The notes under the pieces are model-generated. The model saw nothing but the letters and a program-made list of their open reading frames with translations. It was not told where the DNA came from and searched no databases. Both the position numbers and the translations under genes were made by a program. A DNA stretch of 22,688 nt from Nitrospirota bacterium (lineage in GTDB: Bacteria > JACPQY01): NCBI GenBank assembly GCA_016180645.1, contig JACPAV010000065.1:1-22688 (forward strand). The letters run 5' to 3'. Below, in pieces: positions 1-17,384 of the stretch; the stretch's first letter is position 1, and every line of letters begins with the position of its first letter.

Positions 1-117
1 GGGTTCGGAAACCGTGGCATCGTTGACCCTTTGTTGGACGATATCAGCAGGATGCTCTCCGGTCTGATTCGCCACGTTGAGATGCGGAACGGGCGGGGAA
101 GGGGCGGAGGGACATGA
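1..117 (+). CDS. 3' end of an unidentified upstream gene (partial)
   Basis: Frame 1 is open from the window edge to a TGA at 115-117 and encodes 38 residues, beginning GFGNRGIVDPLLDD and ending in a Gly/Arg-rich tail. The TGA overlaps the ATG of the next gene as ATGA, the usual sign of translational coupling and the same overlap style seen at 10108 and 17381 in this window. That argues for a real gene end rather than chance. The fragment is too short to assign to a family. Its position at the head of an array that leads into a TraC-like ATPase makes a secretion component possible, but that is a guess. The remaining sequence lies outside the window. Confidence 0.55.
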   Translation, partial: GFGNRGIVDPLLDDISRMLSGLIRHVEMRNGRGRGGGT

Positions 118-2561
118 AGGCTGTCCGACTTGTCTTTCTCATCACCCTTCACTCATCACTCATCACGATCTCGCCCGCCTGCCAGAAAACCGCGGCCAAG
201 GAAGAGCCCCAAGCGCCCCGAGACACACAGGCGCCGACGCTCAGTATCACCGAGCCGAGCCTGCCGTACGGCATGGAGGGGATCTCGCAGAGGGAGGGGG
301 TCATCACCTTCTCCGGAATGGCGGAGGATGATCAAGGCGTGGTCCGCGTCAAATGGGAGAACCACCGTGGAGGGAAGGGATGGGCGCGGGTGATGAACAT
401 TCACGGTACCCAGACGAACTGGGAGGTGAAAGACATCCCCATCGAGCCGGGTGACAACAAGATCACCCTGACGGCGCAGGACGCGGCGGCGAACGCGGCG
501 ACAAAGACCATCTGGGTGGGGCGGACCACGGACGTGGATTTCATCAGCTACCCCGACGCGAGCGAGACCGACATCCACTTGAACGAGGCCACCGAGACGA
601 TCTTCCGAGTGGCGATCAAGGAAGCCCGGAAGGTGAAGATCGAGAGCGTCAAGCTCGTGAAGGTGAACGAGAACGGCGAAATTCTGGACACGCTCGGCCC
701 GATGTACGACGACGGGAAGAGCGAGCACGGAGATGAAGTCCCCGCGGACGGCGTCTACAGCGCGAGAGTCACGCTCTTGGAAGGCACGGAGGGCATGGTC
801 CGCTTCCGCGTGGTCGTTAACGGCGTCAAAGAAGGCACGGGCACTGTCTCGGCGTCCTCCGAACCGTTCGGCGCGCAGGTTTTCGTTCCACTGACCGACG
901 AGGAACTAAAGGTATATCTGGCGATGGGACGGAAAGCCGGGGAAATGTACGCCCCGTTGGAAGCGGAGGTGGGAGGTAGGGAGGCGGCGCGTCGGACGGC
1001 TGAATGGCTCAAGAAACAACCTGGCGTGAAGGATGCGGGGTCATTCGAGGACGGCTACAGCTTCGTCATGGATTCGGGTCTCCAGACGGTCTACATTAAC
1101 CCGGATCGGTTTACCAAGCAGGACATTGATCCCGCCGACCTCGAGCCTCTGAGGGAAGAGCCACCGTCTGATTCAAACGCCCCGCCCGTTATGCCTTCGA
1201 GGCCGAAGAAGTTGGAACCACTGATCTACAAGACCCATCGGAGATCGGGGCCATCCCGGGCACAAATCATCAATCCCAAGGTCCTGGTCGTGTCACCCTA
1301 CTCCAATCAGTCCCCGAGGCTTCCGGCGGGGGCCTACGACCGCGTCCACCGGATGTTTGCGGACCACAAGTGTCCGGTTTACGAAGCGAAACGTGTGAAA
1401 GGGGCGTTACCCGACGTTGAAGTTTTCAAGACTCTGAAAGAGCATGACACCGTCATCCTGGATACTCACGGGGAGGCCTTCTGTCCGACTGACGGATGGT
1501 ATCAAGCCTGTCCCTCTGGGTCATCTAGGAAGCCAAGGGCATTCGTAGCGACTTACACGGGAACCCGTGTTACGGCATCCAACGTAAACCAGTACCGGGA
1601 TGATCTGCGTAATGGGATGCTGTACCTGGCGCCGCTCGATCGAGAAGCGCTGAACATGCACTTCGTCCTCTCGCCCACCTTTGTCACAACCCACAATAGC
1701 AAATTTCGTTCTGGCACGATGGTGTTCAATGGGAGTTGCCGAAGCATGTACAACCCCACCATGGCGGGGGCTTTCCTCATGGCGGGCGCGTCGTACTACA
1801 TGGGTTACAACGAGTACGTTCGCACGTGCTACGACAGCGCGGTCGTCAAGACCTTCTTCGAATCCTTGCTTGCCGGGTCTACGGCGGGTCAGGCGTTTAC
1901 GGCCGCGACAACCGCCCACGGCTTCGACGACAACAATTGCTGGTTCTCCCCCCTCTTCTCGAAGCCGTTCCCCGCGGTTCTGACGCCGGCTGGCAATCCC
2001 GACCTCAAGATAACGATCGAGGGGGTCAACAACGGCTCATTCGAGCAAGGACCGGGAGCCCCGCCCCCCGGGTGGGATGCCAAGGGCGACGTGCAGATCA
2101 TCACCAAGCTCGGCCCGATCACGGCGAAAGAAGGCCTCTACATGGCCTACCTCAGCACCGGGGAAAATGCTGAGGAGCAACCCCGCAGCATGCTCGAACA
2201 ACCCTTCTGCGTGCCTCCGGATGCGAAGAAAGTCTCCTTCGACTACCGCCTCGTCTCCGAAGAGCCCGACGAATTCCTGAACTCGGGCTATCGAGACACC
2301 TTCGAGGCGGCGCTCGTCGTGGGAAGCGCGCGGACGGTCCTGGTTTCGGAGCACACGGATCAGGCGCCTTGGAATCCCGTTTCCGGGATCGACCTTGAAG
2401 GCGGCGACCGCACGGCTTTTGCCACCGACTGGCGGCGAGTGAGCGGGGACCTTTCCGAAACCGCCCGCGCCGAGGGCGCGACCCTTGCCTTCCGCCTCCA
2501 AGACAACGGCGATCTCGTCTACGACACCGCCGCCCTCCTCGAAAACGTGCATCTGGAATAG
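114..2561 (+). CDS. caspase-like (clan CD-like) surface lipoprotein, paralog copy 1
   Basis: An 815-aa predicted lipoprotein. The signal peptide ends in S-P-A-C with the lipidated Cys at residue 23. A glucodextranase-B-like Ig domain follows (about 40-137: GxAEDDQGVVRVKW and TAQDAAANAATKTIWV patterns), then a choice-of-anchor-X-like domain (about 140-258, with the DDGKSEHGDEVPADGVYSA signature) and a helical linker with the motif EAARRTAEWLKKQPGV. The core (about 389-629) has two hydrophobic strands ending in LDTHG (His452) and FNGSC (Cys542), the arrangement expected of a caspase-fold His/Cys dyad. The C-terminal domain (630-815) looks like a choice-of-anchor jellyroll (NNGSFEQGPG, LSTGEN, FDYRLVSEEP, YDTAALLENV). 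The start is supported by GGAGG at 106-110. Peptidase activity is inferred from motif only; the partner or substrate is unknown. Confidence 0.85.
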   Translation: MKAVRLVFLITLHSSLITISPACQKTAAKEEPQAPRDTQAPTLSITEPSLPYGMEGISQREGVITFSGMAEDDQGVVRVKWENHRGGKGWARVMNIHGTQTNWEVKDIPIEPGDNKITLTAQDAAANAATKTIWVGRTTDVDFISYPDASETDIHLNEATETIFRVAIKEARKVKIESVKLVKVNENGEILDTLGPMYDDGKSEHGDEVPADGVYSARVTLLEGTEGMVRFRVVVNGVKEGTGTVSASSEPFGAQVFVPLTDEELKVYLAMGRKAGEMYAPLEAEVGGREAARRTAEWLKKQPGVKDAGSFEDGYSFVMDSGLQTVYINPDRFTKQDIDPADLEPLREEPPSDSNAPPVMPSRPKKLEPLIYKTHRRSGPSRAQIINPKVLVVSPYSNQSPRLPAGAYDRVHRMFADHKCPVYEAKRVKGALPDVEVFKTLKEHDTVILDTHGEAFCPTDGWYQACPSGSSRKPRAFVATYTGTRVTASNVNQYRDDLRNGMLYLAPLDREALNMHFVLSPTFVTTHNSKFRSGTMVFNGSCRSMYNPTMAGAFLMAGASYYMGYNEYVRTCYDSAVVKTFFESLLAGSTAGQAFTAATTAHGFDDNNCWFSPLFSKPFPAVLTPAGNPDLKITIEGVNNGSFEQGPGAPPPGWDAKGDVQIITKLGPITAKEGLYMAYLSTGENAEEQPRSMLEQPFCVPPDAKKVSFDYRLVSEEPDEFLNSGYRDTFEAALVVGSARTVLVSEHTDQAPWNPVSGIDLEGGDRTAFATDWRRVSGDLSETARAEGATLAFRLQDNGDLVYDTAALLENVHLE

Positions 2562-2621
2562 CTCGATGAAACGGATTCCGATCCCCGTCCTACTCATCAC
2601 CCTTCACTCATCACTCTTCAC
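2544..2621 (+). repeat. tail-to-head junction repeat J1 (copy 1 / copy 2)
   Basis: A 78-bp block covering the last codons of one gene, the TAG stop, the 4-nt spacer CTCG, the ATG and most of the next signal peptide (core GGAATAGCTCGATGAAAC). It recurs at 4984, 7294 and 12487 with few substitutions. Confidence 0.85.
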
Positions 2622-5001
2622 GACTGTTCCGGCCTGCGACAAGAGCGCCGCGAAGGAGGAGGCCCAAGCGGCCAAGGACACCCAGGCGCCCTCCCTCTCG
2701 ATCACCGAGCCGAGTCTGCCGTACGGGATGGAGGGGATCTCGCAGAAGGAGGGCGTGATCACCTTCTCCGGCATGGCGGAGGACGACCGAGGCGTGGTCC
2801 GTGTGAAATGGGAGAACCACCGGGGAGGGAAGGGTTGGGCGACCGTCGTTCGCCGGGGCACGCAGACCGATTGGGAAGTGAAAGACATCCCGGTCGAGCC
2901 GGGCGACAACCGGATCACCTTGACCGCTCAGGACGCCGCGGCGAACGCGGCCACGCAGACGATCTGGGTGGTGCGGACCACGGACGTGGATTTCATCAGC
3001 TACCCCGATGCGAGCGAGACGGACCTTGAGATCAGCAAGCTGACAGAGGTCATTTTCCGAGTGGCGATCAAGGAGAGTCCGAAAGTGAAGATCGAGAGCG
3101 TCAAGCTCGTGAAGGTGAACGAGAATGGCGAGATTCTGGACACGCTCGGCGAGATGCTCGACGACGGCAAGAGCGAGCACGGGGACGAAGTTCCTGCCGA
3201 TGGCGTGTTCAGCGCGAAGGTCACGCTTCTGGAAGGCACCGAAGGCAAAGTCCGTTTCCGCGTCGTTGTCTCCGGTGTGAAGGAAGGTGCGGGGGGCGTC
3301 ACCGCTTCCTCCGAGCCTTTCGCCGCCCGCGTGTTCAGGCCGTGGACAATGGAACAGTTGAACGCCTTTTGGGCTGTCCAAGAGCCGTCAGAAAAGATGT
3401 ACTTCGACCTCAAGAGCCGGTTGGGGCATGAAGAGGCTGCCCGGAGGACGGTCGAATGGGTGAAACAACAACCGGGCGTTGCTCGCGCCCATGCAGACGA
3501 AGACGGCTACGGATTCACGATGGAGTGGGGCGAGTTCGGTGGACACATAGACATCATCCCGCGAGGTTCCGGCTGGCACCCGGATGATCCCCCCGAAACG
3601 CGTGGAGAAACGCCCGGTCCCTCCCGGCAACTACGGCCACAAGATCAGACTCCAATCCAGGCCCCTCCTCTGCCCGAAAAGGCCCCGCAGAAGCGGCAGC
3701 CGTTGCGTTACAAGTTTCGCGTAGGGGCGCGCGCTGAACTCAAGAACCCCAAGGTCCTCCTTGTTTCACCGTTCTCAAAAAGCCTTCCTACCGAGGGACT
3801 CGACTTCCTCCAAAAGAAGTTCGAGGCGAGCAAGTGCCCCACCTTCCTGACAAAACGGATCGAGAACCTGGACGCCGACATCGAGGCCTTCAAGACGTTC
3901 AAGGACTACAACGTGGTTGTCCTTTACACGCATGGCAATGCCTTGTGCCGTACAGGAGATGGCCCGGCTTATGAATACCGGCGGTGCCCATGTGGGCGGA
4001 CGGCTGGCGCGATGCCCGTCACACTCACGAGCATTCCTCGGAGTCAGGAAATGGATGTGCGCTATCTGGATGAGCGGAACGGCGGCCGGATTGTGGGGAA
4101 GCCCCTTGACGTCTACGGCATCACGCCTGCTTTCGTCACGAAGTACGACAGAAGCTTTCCCACCGGAGCGCTTGTCTTCAACGGAAGCTGCCGGAGCCTC
4201 TTCAACCCCGCCCTCTCAGATTCCTACCGGTCGGCCGGCGCGGCGGCCTATCTGGGATACACGGAGTACGTGTCGATCGGCCACCACAACCTCGTTGTAA
4301 ACGCCTTTTTCGAATTCCTCCTGACTGGACGGAACCTGACCCAAGCGCTCGGCGACACGCTGCTCCAGCGCGGCCTCAAGGATCCCGCGGGGGGATTCAA
4401 CGGCTGTGAACCGGCGGCATTCGTCGGAGCCGGCAAGCAAGACCTCAAGATCACGATCGAAGGCTTCAACAACGGCTCGTTTGAGCAAGGGCCGGGAGTC
4501 CCGCCCGCCGGGTGGGACGCGACAGGCGACGTGCAGATCATCACCAAGTTGGGGCCTCTGACGGCGAAGGACGGTTCCTACATGGCGTATCTCAGCACCG
4601 GCGAGAATGCCGAAGACCAGTCCAAGAGCACGCTCGAGCAACCCTTCTGCGTGCCGGCGGACAAATCGAAGATATCTTTTTCCTATCGTCTGGTCTCCGA
4701 AGAACCTCTGGAATTCGTCAACTCGGAGTGGCGCGATACGTTTGAGGCAGCATTGGTGGTCGGGACCGCCCGCACGGTTCTCGTTTCCGAAACAACGGAC
4801 AAGGGACCGTGGGCGGCGCTCAGCGGCGTGGACCTCGAAGGGGGCGATCGCACCGCCTTCACCACCGACTGGCGGCGCATCTCGTCCGATCTCCCGGAAA
4901 CCGCCCGCACCGAAGGCGCGACCCTTGCCTTCCGCCTCCAAGACAACGGCGATCTCGTCTACGACACCGCCGCCCTCCTCGACAACGTGCATCTGGAATA
5001 G
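2566..5001 (+). CDS. caspase-like surface lipoprotein, paralog copy 2
   Basis: An 811-aa paralog of the gene at 114 with the same domain order. The frame is open further upstream to 2485, but ATG 2566 is chosen because it gives the signal peptide MKRIPIPVLLITLHSSLFT ending in V-P-A-C (Cys24), matching the other copies. It starts 4 nt after the previous stop, with no clear Shine-Dalgarno, so coupling is likely. The putative dyad is His456 (LYTHG) and Cys542 (FNGSC). A Pro/Gln-rich linker at about 3583-3720 precedes the core and is nearly identical in DNA to the one in copy 4. The residue after the lipid Cys is Asp, the inner-membrane retention signal in enteric bacteria, whereas copies 1 and 4 have Gln. 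The C-terminal domain matches the other copies closely. Confidence 0.85.
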   Translation: MKRIPIPVLLITLHSSLFTTVPACDKSAAKEEAQAAKDTQAPSLSITEPSLPYGMEGISQKEGVITFSGMAEDDRGVVRVKWENHRGGKGWATVVRRGTQTDWEVKDIPVEPGDNRITLTAQDAAANAATQTIWVVRTTDVDFISYPDASETDLEISKLTEVIFRVAIKESPKVKIESVKLVKVNENGEILDTLGEMLDDGKSEHGDEVPADGVFSAKVTLLEGTEGKVRFRVVVSGVKEGAGGVTASSEPFAARVFRPWTMEQLNAFWAVQEPSEKMYFDLKSRLGHEEAARRTVEWVKQQPGVARAHADEDGYGFTMEWGEFGGHIDIIPRGSGWHPDDPPETRGETPGPSRQLRPQDQTPIQAPPLPEKAPQKRQPLRYKFRVGARAELKNPKVLLVSPFSKSLPTEGLDFLQKKFEASKCPTFLTKRIENLDADIEAFKTFKDYNVVVLYTHGNALCRTGDGPAYEYRRCPCGRTAGAMPVTLTSIPRSQEMDVRYLDERNGGRIVGKPLDVYGITPAFVTKYDRSFPTGALVFNGSCRSLFNPALSDSYRSAGAAAYLGYTEYVSIGHHNLVVNAFFEFLLTGRNLTQALGDTLLQRGLKDPAGGFNGCEPAAFVGAGKQDLKITIEGFNNGSFEQGPGVPPAGWDATGDVQIITKLGPLTAKDGSYMAYLSTGENAEDQSKSTLEQPFCVPADKSKISFSYRLVSEEPLEFVNSEWRDTFEAALVVGTARTVLVSETTDKGPWAALSGVDLEGGDRTAFTTDWRRISSDLPETARTEGATLAFRLQDNGDLVYDTAALLDNVHLE

Positions 5002-5061
5002 CTCGATGAAACGATTTCCGATCCTCATCCTACTCATCGCCCTTCACTCATCACTCTTCAC
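4984..5061 (+). repeat. tail-to-head junction repeat J2 (copy 2 / copy 3)
   Basis: Second copy of the 78-bp junction. By eye it differs from J1 at five positions, all in the signal-peptide half. It joins a caspase-like tail to a caspase-like head. Confidence 0.85.
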
Positions 5062-7311
5062 GACTGTTCCGGCCTGCGACAAGACCGCGGCAAAGGAAGA
5101 GGTTCAGGCGGCCAAGGACACCCAGCCGCCGACGCTCAACGTCTCGGAGCCAAGCCTGCCGTATGGGATGGAGGGGATCTCCCAGAGGGAAGGCGTGATC
5201 TCCTTCTCCGGCATGGCGGAGGATGATCAAGGCGTGGTCCGCGTGAAATGGGAGAGCAGTCGCGGCGGCAAGGGTTGGGCGACCGTCGCTCGCCGGGGCA
5301 CGCAGACCGATTGGGAGGTGAAAGACATCCCGGTCGAGCCGGGCGACAACCGGATAACCCTGACGGCGCAGGACGCGGCGGCGAATGCGGCCACGCAGAC
5401 GATCTGGGTGGTGCGGACCACGGACGTGGATTTCATCAGCTTCCCCGATGCGAGCGAGACCGACATCCACTTGAACGAGGCCACCGAGACGATCTCGACG
5501 AGGTTCCGGCGGACGGCGTCTACAGCGCGAAGGTGACGCTCCTTGAAGGCACGGAAGGCAAAGTCCGTTTCCGTGTGATCGTGTCCGGCGTGAAAGAGGG
5601 CTCGGGGGGCGTCACCGCTTCGTCCGAACCCTTCGTCATTCGATCCTTGCGGTTGTGGACGGAAGAGGAGGAGCGGCAGGCCGACGCGATTGACGAGCAA
5701 GCGGACAGTACATATTTCGAGTTGAAGGCCAAATTCGGTCACGAGGAAGCCGCGCAGCGCACCGTGGAGTGGTTGAAGATGCAGCCCGGCGTCGCGAGTG
5801 CTGGCGCTTCCGAGGGTGGGTACAGTTTTCTCATGGAGTCGGGAATACAGGGTGGTTACTTGGAGACTATTCCGCGAAAAAATGCCAACCCCGCCGATCT
5901 CAAACCTGATCTACAGAAAGAAGGTTTTGAGGAGCATTGTCTTGGGGATGTTTGCGACACGCCCGACCCGACTGCGGCACCGGCCTCCGCGGTTCGGAAA
6001 CTTGCTCCGCTTCAGTACAAGATGGATCGGCGTGGAGGACTTCGGGCCGGAATCACGAACCCGAAGGTTCTGATTGCGTCTCCTTTTGCAGGCGAATTGC
6101 CCGTCAAAGCGTCGGTGGAACTGAACAGGATGTTTGGATCCCACAGATGTCCGATATTCGACAGGAGGTGGATCGTGGGTGAGAAGGCTGGCGTTGAAAC
6201 TTTCAAGACCATGAAGGACTACGACATCATCGTTCTTGATACGCACGGCGATGCGATCTGCTGGAAAGCCGAGGGTGGATACGAGCGCTGCCGTCGGGGA
6301 GATTTGCCTCCTCCTGGAGCGATTGTGATTACGCGGACCGGTACACCGGTCACGAAGGAAATGAGCCGTTTGTACTCGGAGGAAAGGCGCTCCGGGTTGA
6401 TCGTAGGAGACAGGTTGTTTTCCACCTACGCGATCACGCCGGCCTTCGTCTACAAGCACAAGCCGTTTCGTCAAAAGTCAATGGTTTACAATCTCTCGTG
6501 CCGCAGCCTCTATAACCATACGATGGCCCAAGCTTTTCGGAATGTGGGCGTGTCGCCCTACTTTGGCTATTCGGAGTACGTGGACACCTGCTACGACGAC
6601 ATCGTGCCGACGATTTTTCAGTCCCTTCTAAAGGGACACACCGCAGGCCGGGCATACTCGGACGGCGTTGCCGCCTACGGCCCAACGGACGCGTCTTGCT
6701 CGCCCGTTCCCGAGCCGCATCCGGCGACCTTGATCTTGGCGGGGAGCAGCGACCTCAAGATCACGATCGAGGGCTTCAACAACGGATCGTTCGAGCAAGG
6801 GCCGGGAACCCCGCCCCCCGGGTGGGACGCCAAGGGAGACGTGCAGATCATCACCCAGCTCGGCCCGATCACGGCGAAAGAGGGAATCTACATGGCCTAC
6901 CTCAGCACGGGGGAAAACGCCGAAGACCAATCCAAGAGCGCGCTCGAACAACCCTTCTGCGTTCCGGCGGACAAATCGAAGATATCCTTCTCATACCGAC
7001 TGGTTTCCGAGGAGCCTGACGAATTTCTGAACTCGGGGTATCGAGACACCTTCGAAGCGGCGCTGGTCATCGGGACCGCCCGCACGGTTCTCGTTTCCGA
7101 AACGACGGACAAGGGGCCGTGGTCCCCCTTGCCCGGCGTCGACCTCGAAGGGGGAGATCGCACCGCTTTCGCCACCGACTGGAAAACCGTGGCCTCGGAA
7201 CTTTCCGAAACCGCCCGCGCCGAAGGCGCGACCCTCGCCTTCCGCCTCCAAGACAACGGCGATCTCGTCTACGACACCGTCGCCCTCCTCGACAACGTGC
7301 ATCTGGAATAG
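5006..7311 (+). pseudogene. caspase-like surface lipoprotein, paralog copy 3, frameshifted by a 127-nt deletion
   Basis: The 5' part reads from ATG 5006 (MKRFPILILLIALHSSLFT...VPAC, then the Ig domain) but leaves frame after ATETI at 5494 and stops at 5536. The homologous continuation (DEVPADGVYSAKVTLLEG) resumes at 5497 in the -1 frame and stays open to 7311. Alignment with copy 1 (602 to 732) against 5494 to 5497 shows 127 nt missing, most of the choice-of-anchor-X domain. Everything downstream is intact, including the putative His (THG, codon 6244-6246) and Cys (codon 6499-6501), here NLSC instead of NGSC. No slippery heptamer lies at the junction. Either a recent inactivation or a misassembly across near-identical repeats. 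The 5' piece alone would give a 176-aa lipidated Ig domain. Confidence 0.8.
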
Positions 7312-7371
7312 CTCGATGAAACGATTTCCGATCCTCGTCCTACTCATCACCCTTCACTCATCACTCTTCAC
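7294..7371 (+). repeat. tail-to-head junction repeat J3 (copy 3 / VWA gene)
   Basis: Third copy. It joins a caspase-like tail to the unrelated VWA gene body, so the leader is shared beyond the paralog family. Confidence 0.85.
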
Positions 7372-10111
7372 AATCTTCCCGGCCTGTGAGAATCGGAAGG
7401 CCCCAACACTCGACCCGACTGAGGCTTTGGAGCAGCTCCCCCAGGCCGAAATCGCATCGGACCCGGTGGCACTCACCCCCGTCGTGGCGTGGGCAGTGGA
7501 TCAGATCCTCGTGTCGCTTCGATACTGGGACATTGTGAATGTGGAAGAGGCGCTCGATTTCACGAGAGCGCGTCCAGGTCAGCCGACTTTGTTTGCCGGA
7601 TTGCCTCTCGGGATGCGGCCCGTGCGATCCCGTTCCCGAATCGCCAGACGCCAGGTAGACAATTCCTGTCCCATGCGAGTGGATCGGTCCGACGGGCCGA
7701 CGGGCAAGATCGACCTTGAACTCCTCGGCGGCTGCGAAGCATCGGTAAGCGAAATACCCATTCGCTATGTCGGGAGCATACGATTGAAAGGGGACTTGAG
7801 CCTCGGCGGTCTTCGCGTGAACACGGTTTGGAAGGACTGGACGGAAGAAAATCCCTTCGGACGCAAGAAAGTAAACGGCACTCAGACGCTGGAGAGTTCG
7901 ATCCAGGCCGAAGGCGAATATGCCGCTTCCATTCGCCGGCAGTTGGGGGGGACAACCGGAGACGCGGGGCCCATCGAGGAAGACTTCACGTGGACCGTCT
8001 CAGGACGCGACGGTGAGGAGGCGAACACGAGCGGCTCCTGGCTGTGGACCTCGGGATCATCGATGAGCGCATTGCGCGTGGACCTGAGAACCACATCCGT
8101 TCCGGCGGATACGGCCACGGGGAAACCCGAACGGGTGACCGAGGGAACCTTGGATCTCGGTCTTGTGGGAGGCGGATCACTTCCAGTTCTTTCCGGCTCT
8201 TCTTCCGGCCGGCTGACCGTGCATTTCGAGAGCGTCCGCACGGGCGCCTGTCGTGATGGTCCCGCGAAGCCGACGACCGGCCGGATCATATTTGAATCCC
8301 TCAACCGGGTGGAGGCCGTTTTTTCAGATTCGTGCGACGGATGTGTAAGCCTAACCGATGGGAGCGGGCGCAAGGTTTGCTGGACGGAGCCGGCGCCGCC
8401 GACCGAACCGCCCAACCCAACGGAAGGCCCCCCAACGAGCGAAGGAGTTACCGAGCCGCCTGCGGAGCAGCTGGAGGCCAAAATCGTCGTCATGGAGCCG
8501 ATCTTCACCGCTCAAACCGATATCGCTTCAAATCAGGTCACCCTTGCCTCACAAGACTTGGCGGTGGCCCTGCCGGAAGGGTATCGGACGGTCAACGTAG
8601 AAGCCGATGTGTCCGGCATCTTTTTCGACCGGAGTGAGGGAATTCGTGGGTTCGCCGTGGCGGGACCCTCCGAGGCCGCAACGGCGTCCAAGCTCGGCGA
8701 AGCGTTCAAGAACGGGAGTCGGATCAACGGAACGTCCCTCCCCGCGGAGTCGGCGGCCGTCGTCAGCACGGTCAACTCCCTGCGCCTGACATCGGTGGAA
8801 GGAAAGCCAATGTCGCTTCAGACGTTCGCCGTCGGCTTCTCTTCGCCGAGGAGCTGGGAGAGTGTGACCGCGCAGCTCGCGGCAGGCGTGGGAATGGCGG
8901 CAGCCAAGACGGAGATCTCCATGCCGGGGGTTGAAGTCGGCGCCGCATCCGGCGTCACGTCGAAAGACTATATCGTGGCGCTGGGGTCCGTCGCGCGTGA
9001 TGGGGGAAAATCGCTGCACGCCGCCGCTGTGGCGCCCATGGACCGCTTCGATGAGCAGTCGTCCGAAATGTTTCAGACCGTGGCCGCGGCCACGCGCGCC
9101 AACGCGAAGCTCGCCAGGAAAGAAGAGTCCTTCACGGCCCAGGCTCAAGGGCCGCAGATCACCGTGAGCTCGTCGGTGGTGGACGTGCTGTGGGTCATTG
9201 ATGACTCCGGCAGCATGTCCGAGGAGCAATCCAACTTGGCGACGAATTTCGACGCCTTTTTCCGGCAATTCCGGGCGCTCAACCTCGATTACCACCTGGG
9301 CGTGGTGACGACCGACTGCGACAGTTACAACAGTACCTACTACGGCTCCAAACCGCTCTGCGGCGCCCTGCGAAAACTCTCGAACGGGGCGGTGACCATC
9401 GACTCCAACACGCCGCAGGCCGAGAAGGAATGGGCCACCATCAGCCGCCCCGGCACGTCCGGCTCGGGCAACGAGAAGCCGCTCCTGGCCGCAAGGGAAG
9501 CCCTCACCAGCCGCGAAACGGACAAGACCAACGCCGGATTCCGGAGAGCCGGAGCCTCACTCGTGGTCATCCTTGTCACGGACGAGGTGGATCACTCCTA
9601 CGAAGGCGCTTACAAGAATTCCGACCCGGGGGCGACCTACACGCCGCCCACGCCATTCATCCAATTCGTGCAAGCTCAGGCCGCCTCCGTATTCGCCATC
9701 ACCGGCGATCCGGGGGTGGCCGCCTACAGCGGCGGTTGTACCAGCGCGAACGGCGGCGCCGATCCGGGCAACGCCGTGATCGAGGTGGCGGAATCCACCG
9801 GCGGCTCCTGGGCCAGCATTTGCAGCAGCACGTTCGCGCCGACGCTCAGTCTCATCTCGCAAGCGATCGGCACGAAGTCGAGCCGGTTCCGTCTTTCGCA
9901 GGCGGCCATACCTTCCCGCATCCGCGTGTTCGTGGACGGCATCGAAGTCCGCCGCAGCATCACCCGAAAGAATGCGGGCGCCATCCAACAGGCGGATGGA
10001 TTCATTTATGACGTCGCCTCCCGCACCGTCTCCTTCATCGGGGTTCGGTTCGCACCGAAGCCCGGCCAAACCGTCCGCGTCGTCTACCTGGCGGTGGAGG
10101 GGTTGGCATGA
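7316..10111 (+). CDS. von Willebrand factor A domain lipoprotein
   Basis: A 931-aa predicted lipoprotein with Cys24 after F-P-A. Its leader (MKRFPILVLLITLHSSLFT) is the one used by the caspase-like paralogs, but the mature protein is unrelated to them. Residues 25-350 form an unrecognised beta-rich region with a few Cys; a Pro/Thr/Glu-rich linker follows around 358-380. The VWA domain begins near residue 623, with a complete MIDAS D-x-S-x-S (Asp629, Ser631, Ser633, as IDDSGSM) and a later TDEVDHS (Asp756), which suggest metal-dependent ligand binding. The C-terminal tail (RIRVFVDGIEV, RVVYLAVEG) resembles the beta module that often closes VWA surface proteins. It starts 4 nt after copy 3, and its stop overlaps the start of copy 4 (ATGA). 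Role: probably surface adhesion or complex assembly (inference). Confidence 0.85.
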   Translation: MKRFPILVLLITLHSSLFTIFPACENRKAPTLDPTEALEQLPQAEIASDPVALTPVVAWAVDQILVSLRYWDIVNVEEALDFTRARPGQPTLFAGLPLGMRPVRSRSRIARRQVDNSCPMRVDRSDGPTGKIDLELLGGCEASVSEIPIRYVGSIRLKGDLSLGGLRVNTVWKDWTEENPFGRKKVNGTQTLESSIQAEGEYAASIRRQLGGTTGDAGPIEEDFTWTVSGRDGEEANTSGSWLWTSGSSMSALRVDLRTTSVPADTATGKPERVTEGTLDLGLVGGGSLPVLSGSSSGRLTVHFESVRTGACRDGPAKPTTGRIIFESLNRVEAVFSDSCDGCVSLTDGSGRKVCWTEPAPPTEPPNPTEGPPTSEGVTEPPAEQLEAKIVVMEPIFTAQTDIASNQVTLASQDLAVALPEGYRTVNVEADVSGIFFDRSEGIRGFAVAGPSEAATASKLGEAFKNGSRINGTSLPAESAAVVSTVNSLRLTSVEGKPMSLQTFAVGFSSPRSWESVTAQLAAGVGMAAAKTEISMPGVEVGAASGVTSKDYIVALGSVARDGGKSLHAAAVAPMDRFDEQSSEMFQTVAAATRANAKLARKEESFTAQAQGPQITVSSSVVDVLWVIDDSGSMSEEQSNLATNFDAFFRQFRALNLDYHLGVVTTDCDSYNSTYYGSKPLCGALRKLSNGAVTIDSNTPQAEKEWATISRPGTSGSGNEKPLLAAREALTSRETDKTNAGFRRAGASLVVILVTDEVDHSYEGAYKNSDPGATYTPPTPFIQFVQAQAASVFAITGDPGVAAYSGGCTSANGGADPGNAVIEVAESTGGSWASICSSTFAPTLSLISQAIGTKSSRFRLSQAAIPSRIRVFVDGIEVRRSITRKNAGAIQQADGFIYDVASRTVSFIGVRFAPKPGQTVRVVYLAVEGLA
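10096..10102 (+). promoter_or_regulatory. ribosome binding site inside the end of the VWA gene
   Basis: GGAGGGG lies 5 nt before ATG 10108, within the last codons of the VWA gene. It fixes the start of paralog copy 4. Copies 2 and 3 lack such a site, so copy 4 can initiate on its own. Confidence 0.6.
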
Positions 10112-12504
10112 GAGACCGGCGATGGTGGCTTTCCGATTCCCGATTCCCGATTCTCGTCCTCCTGCTCTCTGCTCACTGCTTGCTGCTCACCCTGCCCGCC
10201 TGCCAAAAGACCGCGGTGAAGGAGGAGGCGCAAGCGGCGAAGGACACACAGGCGCCGACGCTCAATATCACCGAGCCGATCCTGCCGTACGGGATGGAGG
10301 GGATCTCGCAGAAGGAGGGCGTGATCACCTTCTCCGGCACGGCGGAGGACGACCGAGGCGTGGTCCGCGTGAAGTGGGAGAACCACCGGGGAGGGAAGGG
10401 CTGGGCGCGGGTGATGAACATTGGCGGCGCCCAGACGGACTGGGAGGTGAAGGACATCCCGCTCGAACCCGGCGACAACAAGATCACCCTGACCGCGCAG
10501 GACGCCGCGGCGAACGCGGCGACGAAGACGATCTGGGTGGTGCGGACCACGGACGTGGATTTCATCAGCTTCCCCGATGCGAGCGAGACCGACATCCACT
10601 TGAACGAGGCCACCGAGACGATCTTGAACGAGGCCGGCGAGGTCCTGGACACGCTCGGCCCGATGTTCGACGACGGCAAGAGCGAACACGGGGACGAAGT
10701 CCCCGCCGACGGCGTCTACAGCGCGAAGGTCACGCTTCTGGAAGGCACCGAAGGCAAAGTCCGTTTCCGCGTCGTCGTCTCCGGCGTGAAGGAGGGCGCG
10801 GGGGGCGTCACCGCTTCGTCCGAACCTTTCGCCGCCCGGGTGTTCAAGCCGTGGACAATGGAACAGATGGACGCCTCTGAGGCGGTCCAGGAGACATCCG
10901 AGAAGATGTACTTCGACCTCAAGAGCCGGGTGGGACATGAAGAGGCCGCCCGGAGGACCGTCGAATGGCTGATGATGCAACCGGGCGTGGCCGATGCCTA
11001 CGTACATAAGGAGGGATACGGATTCACCATGGAATGGGGCGAGATCGGCGGACACATGGAAATTGCCGTTCGGGGCTCCGGATGGCACCCGGACGATCCC
11101 CCCGAAACGCGTGGAGAAACGCCCGGTCCCTCCCGGCAACAACGGCCACAAGATCAGACTCCAATCCAAGCCCCTCCTCTGCCCGAAAAGGCCCCGCAGA
11201 AGCGGCAACCGTTGCGTTACAAGTTTCGCGCAGGGACGCGCGCCGAACTCAAAAACCCCAAGATCCTGTTTGTCTCCCCCTTCTCGCAGAGCCTCCCCAC
11301 GGAGGGACTTGATTTCCTCCAGAAGAAGTTCGAGGGAAGCAAGTGCCCTGCCTTTGTGACTAGGCGGATCGAGAACGCCGCTGCCGACATCGAGGTCCTC
11401 AAGACCCTCAAGGATTACAACGTGGTCGTCTTCTACACGCACGGCAAGGCCATGTGCCCGGTCGATGCCCCGGGCCGATACCGACCATGCCCCTGTGGGC
11501 GGAGGTCGGACGCAATCCCCGTCACGCTGACGAGCATTCCTCGAAGCAATCAAATGAACGCCCGATATCGGGAGGAACTGAATGCGAACCGGGTGGTAGG
11601 AAGACCATTTGACTACTACGGGATGACCCCTGCTTTCATCACACACTACAATAGATCCTTTCCCCCCGGTGCGCTCGTTTTCAATGGAAGCTGCCGGAGC
11701 CTCTTCAACCCCGCCCTCTCAGATGCCTACCGGTCGGCCGGCTCCGCCGCCTATCTCGGATACTCGGAAATCGTGTCAGTCAAGTACCACAATCTTGTTG
11801 TAGACACATTCTTCAAATTCCTCTTGGCAGGCAGGAACCTGACCCAAGCGCTTGGGGATACGCTCCTACAAAACGGGACGAAGGATCCGTGGGGCGGATT
11901 CGACGACTGCGAGCCGGCCGCATTCGTCGGAGCCGGCAAGCTGGACCTCAAGATCACGATCGACGGCTTCAACAACGGATCGTTTGAGCAAGGGCCGGGA
12001 ACCCCGCCCGCCGGGTGGGACGCCAAGGGAGACGTGCAGATCATCACCAAGCTCGGACCGATCACGGCGAAAGAGGGCCTCTACATGGCCTATCTCAGCA
12101 CGGGGGAAAACGCCGAAGACCAATCCAAGAGCGCGCTCGAACAACCCTTCTGCGTTCCGGCGGATGCAAAGAAGATTTCGTTCGATTATCGCCTCGTCTC
12201 CGAAGAGCCCGACGAATTCCTGAACTCGGGGTATCGCGACACCTTCGAAGCGGCGCTGGTCATAGGAAGCACCCGCACGGTTCTCGTTTCCGAAACGACC
12301 GACAAGGGGCCGTGGGCGGCGCTCAGCGGCGTGGACCTCGAAGGGGGCGACCGCACCGCCTTCGCAACCGACTGGAAAACCGTGGCCTCGGACCTTCCCG
12401 AGAACGCCCGAACCGAGGGCGCGACCCTCGCCCTCCTCGTCAAGGACGGCGGAGATCCTGTCTATGACACCGTCGCCCTCCTCGACAACGTGCATCTGGA
12501 ATAG
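10108..12504 (+). CDS. caspase-like surface lipoprotein, paralog copy 4
   Basis: A 798-aa paralog with all domains in frame. Its leader differs from the others: MRDRRWWLSDSRFPILVLLL...LPAC, encoded by short repeats of GATTCCC and CTGCTCAC type. The start overlaps the VWA stop (ATGA) and has a good ribosome binding site. Compared with copy 1, 60 nt (20 codons) are missing in frame in the choice-of-anchor-X domain just after ATETI, the same place where copy 3 lost 127 nt. The putative dyad is His445 (FYTHG) and Cys529 (FNGSC). Core and linker are closest to copy 2 (shared Pro/Gln linker; SDAYRSAGSAAYLGYSE against SDSYRSAGAAAYLGYTE). The C-terminal domain ends LLVKDGGDPVYDTVALLDNV, slightly diverged from the otherwise near-uniform tails. 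Enzymatic activity is not demonstrated by sequence. Confidence 0.85.
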   Translation: MRDRRWWLSDSRFPILVLLLSAHCLLLTLPACQKTAVKEEAQAAKDTQAPTLNITEPILPYGMEGISQKEGVITFSGTAEDDRGVVRVKWENHRGGKGWARVMNIGGAQTDWEVKDIPLEPGDNKITLTAQDAAANAATKTIWVVRTTDVDFISFPDASETDIHLNEATETILNEAGEVLDTLGPMFDDGKSEHGDEVPADGVYSAKVTLLEGTEGKVRFRVVVSGVKEGAGGVTASSEPFAARVFKPWTMEQMDASEAVQETSEKMYFDLKSRVGHEEAARRTVEWLMMQPGVADAYVHKEGYGFTMEWGEIGGHMEIAVRGSGWHPDDPPETRGETPGPSRQQRPQDQTPIQAPPLPEKAPQKRQPLRYKFRAGTRAELKNPKILFVSPFSQSLPTEGLDFLQKKFEGSKCPAFVTRRIENAAADIEVLKTLKDYNVVVFYTHGKAMCPVDAPGRYRPCPCGRRSDAIPVTLTSIPRSNQMNARYREELNANRVVGRPFDYYGMTPAFITHYNRSFPPGALVFNGSCRSLFNPALSDAYRSAGSAAYLGYSEIVSVKYHNLVVDTFFKFLLAGRNLTQALGDTLLQNGTKDPWGGFDDCEPAAFVGAGKLDLKITIDGFNNGSFEQGPGTPPAGWDAKGDVQIITKLGPITAKEGLYMAYLSTGENAEDQSKSALEQPFCVPADAKKISFDYRLVSEEPDEFLNSGYRDTFEAALVIGSTRTVLVSETTDKGPWAALSGVDLEGGDRTAFATDWKTVASDLPENARTEGATLALLVKDGGDPVYDTVALLDNVHLE

Positions 12505-12564
12505 CTCGATGAAACGATTTCCGATCCCCGTCCTACTCATCACCCTTCACTCATCACTCTTCAC
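12487..12564 (+). repeat. tail-to-head junction repeat J4 (copy 4 / NHL gene)
   Basis: Fourth copy. It differs from J3 at one position by eye and joins copy 4 to the unrelated NHL-repeat gene. Confidence 0.85.
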
Positions 12565-14821
12565 AATCTTCCCGGCCTGCGGCGGCTCCCGCCCGGCAAA
12601 TGAAACCATCGGGATTCCTCTTCGCCCCGAAGTCGCCCTCTTCCTTGCTTCCGCTGTCCCTCTGACAACGGAGATCGAGACGGGAACAAACCTCCCTCCT
12701 CTCGAAACAGGGGTGACGTGCCGTCCGGGCGGCGCCTCGGTTACCGCGGCTCCGTCGCCGGCCGCGCCAACCACCGTAGAGGAATGTACTCTCGATGCGG
12801 CGATCCCGGAAAAAACTCTCGCGGTAGGCGCCGTCCTCCGACTCACCGTAGCTCGGGTAGCCGATGGAGTGGTCGTCGCGAAGATCATGGCACGCGCTTC
12901 CGCCCGGACTCCGGGTCACCGGTTTATCCTGCGGGATGCACTTGTGTATCTCCCGGACGATGATGGCGACGGGGTCTCCAATGCTCTCGAATCGGTCTCC
13001 GGATATTCCCCGCTTGATCCCACCGTCAAACCCGAGACGGCACAACTGGCGGAAACGGCAGGCCGCGCCGCGCGGAGACTCCAGCCGCTCCTGGGAACAC
13101 TCCCCCCCCTCAAGATCGATCTCATCCCCCCTCAGGCTTGGATCACCAAGCCTGAGGCCGGCTCGGGAGCAGATGAATTCTCATTCAGCTCACCCGACGC
13201 CTCGGCCGTTTTCCTCTGCTCGGTCGACGGCTCCGATTTCGAGATGTGCTTCGATACGCTTCGACTGGATAAGTTAACGGATGGAACGCATCAAGTGGAA
13301 ACCAGGGCCGTGAGCCCCCTCGGCAGCGCCCAGAAAGAACCCACCGTATTCAAATGGGAGCAACAACCCCCCGCGACACCGCCTGACGCGCTCTTCGACC
13401 TGACCGCTCCCAACCCACCCGACTCTCTCACGCTCAGCATGGACAGCTTTGGAGAGGGCAAGTTCATCCTCTCCTGGCCGGAAGCATCAGACGATTTTGG
13501 CGTCCTCGGATACCGCGTCTGGTATGACTCGGACGGGCCGGGTCCTCCATACAGTGGGACTGGATTCCGCGAAGGGTCGTCCCCGATCTTCGTGCCCGCT
13601 CCGGCAACCCGCTTCGAATTCACCGGCGCGAAGTTCCGTCCCTACTATTTCGCCGTGACGGCCCTCGACCACGCCAGGCGGGAGTCCGCTTTCACGGAGG
13701 AGGTCAACACGTTCCTCCCCCCGGCGGAACATGTGATCGGGCAAGCCGACTTCACCGCACACGCCGCGGGCCTCTCGGCGTCCACCTTCGACGCTCGAGG
13801 CGCCGACCCCGTGAGAGGTCTCGGATACGACCCGGATCTCCAACGACTCTTTGTCTCCGACTACTACGGGCATCGGGTGTTGGTCTTTTCTCTCGCCGCC
13901 GGGATCACAGACGGCATGAGCGCTTCGAATGTCCTCGGCGCTCCCGACTTCACCACACGCGGCGCCGGTTGCAGTCCCTCAAGCCTGCTCAACCCGGCCT
14001 CTCCTGCGTACGATCCGGCAGGCAAACTCTTGTTCGTTCCCCAGGAGGGCGCGAGCAGAATCTCCGTGTTCGAGTTGGGCCATGGAATCCACGATGGGAT
14101 GAGCGCCGCCCACGTGCTGGGCCAAAGGAGCCTCTCCTCGTGTGATGGAGGCACGGGGCGGTCCCTCCTGTCTGAAGCCGCCTCGGCCGCTTACTCCGGC
14201 AAAGAGAAAAGACTGTTCGTGTCCGATTTCGGAAACAACAGGGTGCTTGCCTGGGAGCTTCCTTCTGGCTTGGAAAACGGAGTGGCGGCGGACCTCGTCC
14301 TGGGCCAAAAGAGCTTCACGACCAATGCTTGCGGCAGCGATCCCGCGGAGATGGATGGGCCGGCGCAGATTCTATACGACGAGGCCACCCATCGGTTGTT
14401 CGTCGCGGATTCCGGCGACGTGTGCGGCCTCGGGATGAGGGTCCTGGTGTTCGACTTCTCGCAATCCGTTGCGAACGGGGCCCAAGCCGCCCCGGGCCCT
14501 GGACGGACGGGATCCCCGGCCGGCAACTCGGGCTCCGAACATGCCTCCCTGGCAACCCCCCGTGGAATAGCCCTCGATCCCGTCGGCAGCACCCTTTTCA
14601 TTTCGGACAGCGGCAACAACCGGATCCTCGTCTACGATCTGGCATCAGACGCGAGAATGGCGGCCTACGTGATCGGACAGGCCAATTTCAACGATCGCGC
14701 GCCGGGACGATCGCAAACCAGGCTGAAAAATCCCGCCGGGTTGGTCTTCGATCCGGACCATCGCCACCTGTTCGTGGCGGATTCGGGCAACAACCGAGTG
14801 CTGGCTTTCAGGATTCCATGA
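12509..14821 (+). CDS. Ig / fibronectin III / NHL-repeat lipoprotein
   Basis: A 770-aa predicted lipoprotein with the shared leader (MKRFPIPVLLITLHSSLFT...FPAC, Cys24). ATG 12509 is chosen over the upstream in-frame 12464 because it gives this leader 4 nt after the preceding stop. A calcium-loop-like DDDGDGVSNALE sits at about 150-161. Residues 210-290 carry the Ig-like pattern FSSPDASAVFLCSVDG ... DGTHQVETRAVS. A fibronectin III domain spans about 300-405. From about 407 to the end run six NHL-type blades (LFVSDYYGHRVLVF, LFVSDFGNNRVLAW, LFISDSGNNRILVY, LFVADSGNNRVLAF), probably a six-bladed propeller, with the recurrent VLGQ/VIGQ + F spacer. Likely an outer-surface binding or scaffolding protein; the ligand is unknown. 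It lies 22 nt upstream of the TraC-like gene. Confidence 0.85.
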   Translation: MKRFPIPVLLITLHSSLFTIFPACGGSRPANETIGIPLRPEVALFLASAVPLTTEIETGTNLPPLETGVTCRPGGASVTAAPSPAAPTTVEECTLDAAIPEKTLAVGAVLRLTVARVADGVVVAKIMARASARTPGHRFILRDALVYLPDDDGDGVSNALESVSGYSPLDPTVKPETAQLAETAGRAARRLQPLLGTLPPLKIDLIPPQAWITKPEAGSGADEFSFSSPDASAVFLCSVDGSDFEMCFDTLRLDKLTDGTHQVETRAVSPLGSAQKEPTVFKWEQQPPATPPDALFDLTAPNPPDSLTLSMDSFGEGKFILSWPEASDDFGVLGYRVWYDSDGPGPPYSGTGFREGSSPIFVPAPATRFEFTGAKFRPYYFAVTALDHARRESAFTEEVNTFLPPAEHVIGQADFTAHAAGLSASTFDARGADPVRGLGYDPDLQRLFVSDYYGHRVLVFSLAAGITDGMSASNVLGAPDFTTRGAGCSPSSLLNPASPAYDPAGKLLFVPQEGASRISVFELGHGIHDGMSAAHVLGQRSLSSCDGGTGRSLLSEAASAAYSGKEKRLFVSDFGNNRVLAWELPSGLENGVAADLVLGQKSFTTNACGSDPAEMDGPAQILYDEATHRLFVADSGDVCGLGMRVLVFDFSQSVANGAQAAPGPGRTGSPAGNSGSEHASLATPRGIALDPVGSTLFISDSGNNRILVYDLASDARMAAYVIGQANFNDRAPGRSQTRLKNPAGLVFDPDHRHLFVADSGNNRVLAFRIP

Positions 14822-14843: not shown

Positions 14844-17384
14844 ATGGCGATCTCGTTCGAACGTATGAAGACACTCCACGACCGCGGCGAGGACCTTGCG
14901 TCGCTCCTGCCGTATTACGACTACGACCCCGAGGGCCAGGTCTTCATCCAAGTGGACGGCAGGCTGGGCGTCGGGTGGAAGATCGAACCGGTGCCGTCGG
15001 ACACGGATACGGACGAATCGCGATCGAGGCTGGCCGAACTCGTCGAAAAAATCCTCCTGGAAATTCCCCCGGAGTTTGCCGGCCAGTGGATTCTCGAAGT
15101 CAGCCGGGATGTGGAGGACACGCTGGACCGGTTCATATCGGCGTCCGATCTGAACGGTCGTGGGCTGCTGAAGCTCCTCTGCGAGGGTAAATGCGAACGA
15201 TATCGAAATGCCACTTCCTATGGATTCTGGAAAGGCAATCCCTACCGCTGCCGCAAGTTTTCAACCTACCTCCTATTGTCCTCCCCAAAGGTGGCCAATC
15301 TCCCCGGCGGCCCGCTGGCGTGGATCGGTCGCGGGCGTTCCTCGCTCGTCGATGAAGCCGAACGAAAATATCTCCAACGTAAGGCCGATCTGACCCGCCA
15401 GGCCATGGCGGTCGAGCGCGGCTTTGAAGGGTACGGTTTCAAGCCGCAACGGCTGGATCTGACGGGTCTGCTCGGAATCGTGTATCGAACCTTGAATCCC
15501 GGCCGGGCGGAAAAGTTCAGGTTTGGGAATCGGCCTGAAACGGCGGCGGGAGCCGACTTGACGTTCACGCCCGACGGTCGGCCGCTCCGCGAGCAAGTCG
15601 TCTTCGGAAACTGTGCCGTTCGGGAGGACCATCTGGATCTGGACGGCATGCACGCGCAGGTCTTCAGCCTCACGGGCCTTCCCGGCAGCGTGAGCCCGGG
15701 CCTCATCAACACGCTCCTCGAAAGGTATACCGGCGACCTCCTCGTCACGATTAATTTCGTCAACTTGTCGCTGTCCGATTCGAAAGGAGCCCTCGGCATG
15801 AAACGATTCCTCGCCGGCCGGCAGGCGAAATCGATCACCGGGCAGGAGAACCTTTCCGCGAAGGTGATTCTGGAGGAGCTCGACGAAGTGCTGCGGGAGA
15901 TCGAATCGCACAATCGGCGCATGGTCTGCTTCTCGGTGCACGCGGTGGCCTCCACGCCGCCCGAACGCCACGCCGAAGCGGCGGATTCCATCCTCCGCGC
16001 GTTCTCATTCGTGGGGGCGACGGCGACCGTTGAAACCGCCATCGCACTGCCGGTCCTGCTCTCCAGCCTCCCTCTTGCCTTCGACCCCAAATTGGATTCG
16101 TACATGCGCCGCCTCCGGAAAGTTCTCTCGGACCGCTTTGTGATGTTCTGCCCCCTCTGGGGGTACTTCCGGGGCACCCGATCGCCCACACAGCTTTACC
16201 TCACGCGGCAGGGCGTTCCGATCACGCTCGATCCGATGGATTGCGATACCAGCCCCCACGGCGTGATCCTCGCCACATCCGGCGCCGGCAAAAGCTTCTT
16301 CACCAACGACATGCTCATTCAAGCCCAACGGTTGGAACCCCGGCCGTTCGTCTTCATCATCGACGTCGGCGGCTCATATCAGAAATTGTGTGAGATGATG
16401 GACGGCGACTACGCCCAGATCCAACTCCGAGCTCCGACCTGCATCAACCCGTTTGCTGAAGAACTCAGCGACGCGAGCGTGGCGCTGTGGGTTCCCCTCT
16501 TGGCGCAGATGGTGCGAGACCCTGAGAGCGCCGAGCCGGTCACCCGCGAGCAGAAAGTCCTCTTCGAACTCGCCCTCCGCGGCGCTTTCGAGCACAAGCC
16601 CGGAAGCGAAATCTTCCTGAGCGACATCGTGGCCGAATTGAAAAAACAGGGCGCCCTCGGCGAATCCCTCGCGCTCAAACTCTACCCGTTCACCCGTCAG
16701 GGCCGCTTCGGAGTGTTCTTCGACGGCCCGACGAAACTCCGCATCGGCAACCGATTCATGGTCTTCGACCTCACCGAGGCGAAAGATCAGGTCGAACTGC
16801 GCGGGCCGCTCATGATGGCGGTGATGAATCTCATCATCCGCATCGTTCGGGAGGAAAACCTTCGCGGCACCCGAAAATACCTCATGATCGATGAAGCGTG
16901 GGCCTTCCTCAAAGATCCCGCAGCCGCAGAGTTCATCAAGGAAGGGTACAAAACGTTTCGGAAATACTCGGGGCTCGTTTTCGTCATCACGCAGGACGTG
17001 CTCGATCTGGTCCAGTTCCCCGCCGGTGAAGCGATCCTGTCCAACGCCCCGAACGTATTTCTGCTCAAACAGCAGGCCAAAGCCCTCGAGGCGCTCGGCA
17101 AGCACCTCCATCTTTCGGAAAATCAAATCCGGACCATCCAGTCGGTCCACATGCGTAAGGGCTACTACAGCGAAGCCTACGTCATGACCACGTTCGAAGG
17201 CGCCACGAGGGACGGCGTGATCCGCGTGGTGCCGGACCCGGTCTCGTACTGGGTGTCCACTACGGATGGCGCGGACGTTCAGGCCTTTCATGAAGCGGTC
17301 AAGGAAACCGGGGACAAGGTTGAGGCGATCCGGCGGCTGGCCGAACGATTCCCGATGGGAGCCGCGGCCGGGAGCTCCCGATGA
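14844..17384 (+). CDS. traC: TraC/VirB4-type conjugative secretion ATPase
   Basis: An 846-aa protein, about the size of F-plasmid TraC, the VirB4-class ATPase that energises pilus assembly and transfer at the inner membrane. The N-terminus (LLPYYDYDPEGQVFIQVDG, then LGVGWKIEP) matches the F-type TraC opening. The ATPase half has Walker A ATSGAGKS (Lys483, Ser484), Walker B YLMIDEAW (Asp683, Glu684) and the downstream VFVITQDVLDL segment typical of the family. All catalytic motifs are intact. It ends in an ATGA overlap with the next gene. The F-type neighbours TraV, TraW and TraU are not recognisable here, so either the rest of the system is elsewhere or this is a divergent apparatus. The symbol is by family, not proof of orthology. 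Confidence 0.88.
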   Translation: MAISFERMKTLHDRGEDLASLLPYYDYDPEGQVFIQVDGRLGVGWKIEPVPSDTDTDESRSRLAELVEKILLEIPPEFAGQWILEVSRDVEDTLDRFISASDLNGRGLLKLLCEGKCERYRNATSYGFWKGNPYRCRKFSTYLLLSSPKVANLPGGPLAWIGRGRSSLVDEAERKYLQRKADLTRQAMAVERGFEGYGFKPQRLDLTGLLGIVYRTLNPGRAEKFRFGNRPETAAGADLTFTPDGRPLREQVVFGNCAVREDHLDLDGMHAQVFSLTGLPGSVSPGLINTLLERYTGDLLVTINFVNLSLSDSKGALGMKRFLAGRQAKSITGQENLSAKVILEELDEVLREIESHNRRMVCFSVHAVASTPPERHAEAADSILRAFSFVGATATVETAIALPVLLSSLPLAFDPKLDSYMRRLRKVLSDRFVMFCPLWGYFRGTRSPTQLYLTRQGVPITLDPMDCDTSPHGVILATSGAGKSFFTNDMLIQAQRLEPRPFVFIIDVGGSYQKLCEMMDGDYAQIQLRAPTCINPFAEELSDASVALWVPLLAQMVRDPESAEPVTREQKVLFELALRGAFEHKPGSEIFLSDIVAELKKQGALGESLALKLYPFTRQGRFGVFFDGPTKLRIGNRFMVFDLTEAKDQVELRGPLMMAVMNLIIRIVREENLRGTRKYLMIDEAWAFLKDPAAAEFIKEGYKTFRKYSGLVFVITQDVLDLVQFPAGEAILSNAPNVFLLKQQAKALEALGKHLHLSENQIRTIQSVHMRKGYYSEAYVMTTFEGATRDGVIRVVPDPVSYWVSTTDGADVQAFHEAVKETGDKVEAIRRLAERFPMGAAAGSSR

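Follow-up and report, generated by a model that had tools for sequence, protein, structure and literature searches.

A tandem gene family with a predicted caspase-like core

We analyzed a stretch of 22,688 nucleotides from a Nitrospirota bacterium (hereafter the window), which is the entire contig C65 (JACPAV010000065.1) of assembly GCA_016180645.1 and comes from a barely sampled phylum. The window contains four paralogous genes, three intact and one frameshifted, which probably encode surface-tethered CHAT-type cysteine endopeptidases of an unnamed family, all built on one chassis. An earlier note, made from the sequence alone, had described a tandem array of four lipoproteins with a THG and an SCRS motif about 85-90 residues apart. 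Four paralogues with protein identities of 59-81% were indeed found within positions 114-12504, and both motifs were present in every copy. All four copies lie on the same strand, but they are not strictly consecutive, because a VWA-like gene (7316-10111) separates the third from the fourth, and the third copy is not intact. The copies and their cores are as follows.

c1, 114..2561, forward strand: signal peptide (Cys at residue 23), immunoglobulin (Ig)-like domain, choice-of-anchor-X-like domain, helical pre-domain, CHAT-like core at about residues 369-627 (H452, C542), C-terminal jelly roll
CHAT-like core of c1, 1218..2000, forward strand: predicted to fold like a caspase, with 90 residues from His to Cys
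c2, 2566..5001, forward strand: architecture as in c1, THG at residue 455, SCRS at residue 541
CHAT-like core of c2, 3700..4440, forward strand
c3, 5006..7311, forward strand: frameshifted, with core and jelly roll in an open frame between about 5518 and 7311
CHAT-like core of c3, 6001..6750, forward strand: lies in the shifted frame
c4, 10108..12504, forward strand: architecture as in c1, 60-nt in-frame deletion, nearest copy c2 (81% amino acid identity)
CHAT-like core of c4, 11209..11943, forward strand

The THG and SCRS motifs start at residues 451 and 541 in c1, 455 and 541 in c2, and 444 and 528 in c4, and they are 85 residues apart in c3. The spacing is thus 84-90 residues in all four copies.

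Predicted fold and conservation of the His/Cys dyad

The core of c1 was modelled by AlphaFold2 from 13 family sequences, and the placement of the dyad was read from the DSSP assignment and the alignment ranges of the predicted model. The model (predicted local distance difference test, pLDDT, 82; predicted template modelling score, pTM, 0.83) contains a caspase-like sheet. A strand at model residues 78-82 is followed by His84, which corresponds to H452 of c1, and a strand at residues 168-172 is followed by Cys174, which corresponds to C542. In the predicted structure, the His therefore follows one central strand and the Cys follows the next, which is the layout of clan CD peptidases.

When the core model was used as a Foldseek query, the SAVED-CHAT structure 8tl0 was retrieved first (E = 5e-6), followed by DdvA, separases, caspases, and TPR-CHAT. 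Alignment with VIA-align yielded Z scores of 17.7 for SAVED-CHAT, 16.7 for separase, and 15.7 for the gingipain R RgpB, while TPR-CHAT, metacaspases, legumain, and caspases reached 11.6-12.9. The caspase-like topology proposed in the earlier note was thus recovered both by the model and by the fold searches.

Both dyad residues were invariant in all 23 aligned family members. They were also kept in 8 of 9 more distant matches, the ninth being a fragment with an aligned part that ends at the Cys. Because all copies are paralogous and the dyad is invariant in the 23 members and retained in the 8 distant matches, the motif pair is far from a chance occurrence. The invariance of the dyad also favors a protease over an effector or an adhesin, the other roles that had been considered. 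A non-catalytic reading would hold that the caspase-like fold has been retained as a scaffold for binding, and that the choice-of-anchor-X, Ig, and jelly roll domains are the active part of surface adhesins or receptors. The adhesin-type flanks, the binding-type folds of the neighboring VWA and NHL proteins, and the fact that the cores differ strongly from copy to copy would fit such pseudo-proteases. However, both dyad residues are invariant wherever both align, and this holds in several phyla, unlike in the known pseudo-orthocaspases, which lose the dyad (PMC6426788). We therefore regard the adhesin reading as unlikely.

Probable relation to CHAT peptidases

For comparison, an alignment of 15 CHAT domains retrieved with PF12770 was used. 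In hhalign, the family profile matched this alignment with a probability of 95.7 and an E value of 8.7e-9, with His aligned on His and Cys on Cys. The window copies themselves had no match above the gathering score of the Pfam CHAT model (PF12770), while the relative from genome G629, which reads LSACRS, passed this cut-off with 24.7 versus 24 bits. More generally, no Pfam or NCBIfam model above its cut-off covered the window copies, so that the family is likely to be annotated only by its flanks. A sequence search of the PDB with the core profile gave no significant match, and literature searches by domain words retrieved no paper specific to the family. By profile comparison, CHAT-like is the closest assignment, and not gingipain-like.

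TPR-CHAT/Csx29 and SAVED-CHAT are intracellular, CRISPR-linked effectors. The window family shares with the CHAT peptidases the fold, the HG and (S/G)AC-S type motifs, and a dyad in register, but it differs in being exported, in having a longer insert between His and Cys and another chassis, and in that only one of its members scores above the Pfam threshold. Separase (C50), the second-best fold match in VIA-align, is in contrast an intracellular protease of eukaryotes that acts on cohesin and has a helical scaffold.

Gingipains (C25) resemble the family as exported bacterial clan CD peptidases with Ig-type neighbors, and the strong fold match of RgpB, together with the presence of two true C25 proteins in the same genome, could suggest that the window copies are gingipain-like exported peptidases. 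However, PF01364 had matches in the genome only on contigs C33 and C2 and none in the window, and no profile match of the family to those two sequences was found, whereas the CHAT domains did match. C25 membership was therefore rejected, and we consider it highly improbable. The two C25 proteins (L001, G000:C33; L002, G000:C2) are encoded by open frames of more than 2300 codons. A weak match on contig C11 was discarded as a chance match; its neighbors are unrelated and, by eye, of the IspD/IspF type.

Flanking domains and export

The Ig and choice-of-anchor flanks described earlier were supported by profile matches, but all of these were below threshold. The choice-of-anchor X and L models reached up to 24.1 of the required 25 bits (NF041940) and up to 19.7 of 27 bits (NF038133), respectively, and this assignment is therefore a resemblance only. 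In the proposed chassis, the Ig-like part would form a stalk, the choice-of-anchor-X-like part a sandwich, and the pre-domain is of a helical/beta type. A Foldseek search with the full-length model retrieved carbohydrate-binding module and ephrin-receptor-like structures, which we take to reflect the predicted C-terminal jelly roll. For the middle sandwich, VIA matches of the PD-1/GlgE type had Z scores of about 8.5, too weak for a name.

The window proteins are read as Sec-exported and probably lipid-anchored. The orthologue in a sister genome (L019) has the same architecture and a canonical lipobox, LVAGC. The lipoprotein claim of the earlier note is probable, although the leaders of the window copies lie outside the PROSITE-type lipobox.

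Divergence between the copies

In c3, 127 nt are deleted after position 5496 and the frame is shifted. As a result, the signal peptide and the core of c3 are in different frames, while the downstream part forms a stop-free frame of 597 codons. Copy c3 may be a pseudogene, an assembly error, or the product of a recent lesion. The 60-nt in-frame deletion of c4 begins at the same 5' junction as the c3 deletion.

Divergence was distributed unevenly along the genes. DNA identities among the copies were mostly 70-98% in the first ~700 nt and the last ~560 nt, and mostly 35-65% in the middle (between positions ~800 and ~1970 of c1) for all pairs but c2/c4. The proportion of synonymous differences (pS) was about 0.25-0.54 in the flanks versus 0.70-0.76 in the core, with a core value of 0.46 for c2/c4. 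The ratio of nonsynonymous to synonymous divergence (dN/dS) in the core was about 0.19-0.27 where it could be estimated, most pairs being near synonymous saturation. Such mosaic divergence is the pattern expected if recombination homogenizes the ends while the cores diverge, since unequal replacement rates by themselves would not increase pS. Because the chassis is nearly the same while the pre-domain and the protease core have diverged, the copies probably differ in specificity.

Distribution of the family

The design consisting of Ig domain, choice-of-anchor-X domain, helical pre-domain, CHAT-like core, and jelly roll recurs in several phyla. It is seen in lipoproteins, in Paenibacillus proteins with an S-layer anchor, and in two giant proteins of Paenibacillaceae. 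The family was present in both examined genomes of the window's phylum (the sister being a Nitrospirae-labelled groundwater metagenome-assembled genome). Two more phyla also contain it: another small one, with 2 of 4 genomes positive, and a further one, with 8 of 132; a member from the latter, L106, has the whole architecture and a lipobox-like GSC motif. Among 245 sampled Paenibacillaceae genomes, 8 encode the family, and several Paenibacillus species carry it with SLH anchors. No relative was found in the plasmid and phage collections.

The two giant proteins, of 2193 and 2225 residues (L069, L071, L072; G621), combine SLH domains, the CHAT-like module, and a HINT domain with C-terminal ends that are unrelated and, by eye, HNH-like in one and kinase-like in the other. 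By eye rather than by profile search, this layout is typical of polymorphic toxins, for which caspase-like domains have been proposed as releasing peptidases (PMC3482391). The chassis might thus be a trafficking or processing module of polymorphic toxin systems, with the window copies being toxin-less or immunity-side components for contact-dependent competition; the divergent ends and HINT domains of the Paenibacillaceae proteins, as well as the proposed releasing role, speak for this view. However, the window copies have neither a toxin nor a HINT domain after the core, but end in the jelly roll, and we judge this explanation to be quite unlikely.

Gene neighborhood

Three further genes accompany the array.

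VWA-like exported protein gene, 7316..10111, forward strand: lies between c3 and c4, matches CglD weakly
NHL beta-propeller exported protein, 12509..14821, forward strand: downstream of c4
F-type TraC / VirB4 type IV secretion system (T4SS) ATPase, 14844..17384, forward strand: 327 bits, below the TIGR02746 equivalog cut-off

All gene junctions up to 14821 are 4-nt gaps or a 4-nt overlap, and TraC follows 22 nt further on, so that the stretch reads as one operon. The VWA-like protein weakly matched the model of the gliding motility lipoprotein CglD, with 63.9 bits (cut-off 400), and also a Bdellovibrio MIDAS adhesin model. Its orthologue, 49% identical, is encoded directly downstream of the caspase-like gene of the sister genome, where a gene partly similar to the NHL gene (39% over 145 residues) follows. 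On one sister contig, the caspase-like, VWA, and NHL-like genes thus follow one another in this order, and the same strand also carries, at a distance of about 30 kb, TraC (73% identical to that of the window), a secretin-like open reading frame, TraV-like, TraB, and TraK; the TraV-like match is below threshold. An F-type cluster is therefore represented by TraC in the window, and by TraC, TraB, TraK, and TraV-like genes, together with the cassette, on a single contig of the sister genome. Matching TraK, TraB, TraV-like, and secretin-like genes are present on contig C1 of the window's assembly. Contig C1 probably joins C65, and this junction would put the array inside the T4SS operon.

A TraU-like name for two large open reading frames of the sister locus was dropped, as it had no profile support. 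Elsewhere in the genome of the window, there is another TraC-type T4SS locus (L054, G000:C20), which is more distant and has a P-loop_TraG match above the cut-off; a caspase-like gene was not seen adjoining it.

Proposed function

The window proteins are probably latent cysteine endopeptidases attached to the cell surface. The flanking domains would position the protease, the pre-domain and the jelly roll might gate it or bind a target, and Cys542 and His452 (c1 numbering) would cut a protein that is secreted or exposed on the surface. This target might be the protease itself or be encoded within the same F-type T4SS cluster. Several observations weigh against this reading. The full-length model is moderate, with a mean pLDDT of 59, and weak outside the core and its flanks. 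The leaders end in SPAC, VPAC, and LPAC, with Pro at position -2, which does not conform to the PROSITE PS51257-type lipobox. In addition, the link to a T4SS was seen in two related genomes only.

A more far-reaching proposal, which we regard as conceivable but doubtful, is that cell-surface CHAT proteases with a fixed chassis form a class spanning several phyla, and that they were amplified in tandem inside a T4SS gene cluster, their ends recombining and their catalytic cores diversifying. One cell would then display several surface proteases that differ in specificity and that process or gate a machinery for conjugation, secretion, or contact-dependent killing.

The solved CHAT protease structures matched in this analysis belong to intracellular regulators or effectors. 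A conserved exported version with a lipid or S-layer anchor, an intact dyad, occurrence in distant phyla, and HINT/toxin-like fusions would mean that caspase-type proteolysis also takes place at the bacterial surface. As the same design occurs in several distant bacterial groups, relatives of caspases appear to work on the exterior of bacterial cells too. A survey of prokaryotic caspase homologues has noted that many may be extracellular (PMC3501461); to this picture and to that of the releasing peptidases (PMC3482391), the family adds a fixed surface architecture with a CHAT-type core, and it provides a concrete set of proteins for assay.

A dispersed repeat in the leaders

Six signal peptides share the hydrophobic core LITLHSSLFT, and its coding sequence is a short dispersed repeat, CTTCACTCATCACTCTTCA. 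The leader sites are window positions 147, 2602, 5042, 7352, and 12545, and C1:10016 in the same genome. With at most one mismatch, the repeat occurs at 15 places in the genome, versus 0 for a reversed control, and several of the non-leader places do not resemble signal peptides. A 163-bp stretch at window positions 19-181, which spans the leader of c1 and the sequence upstream of it, shares 94% identity with the corresponding region of the TraV-like gene L034 at positions 9888-10050 of contig C1. From this similarity, the leaders look as if they had been exchanged between such genes.
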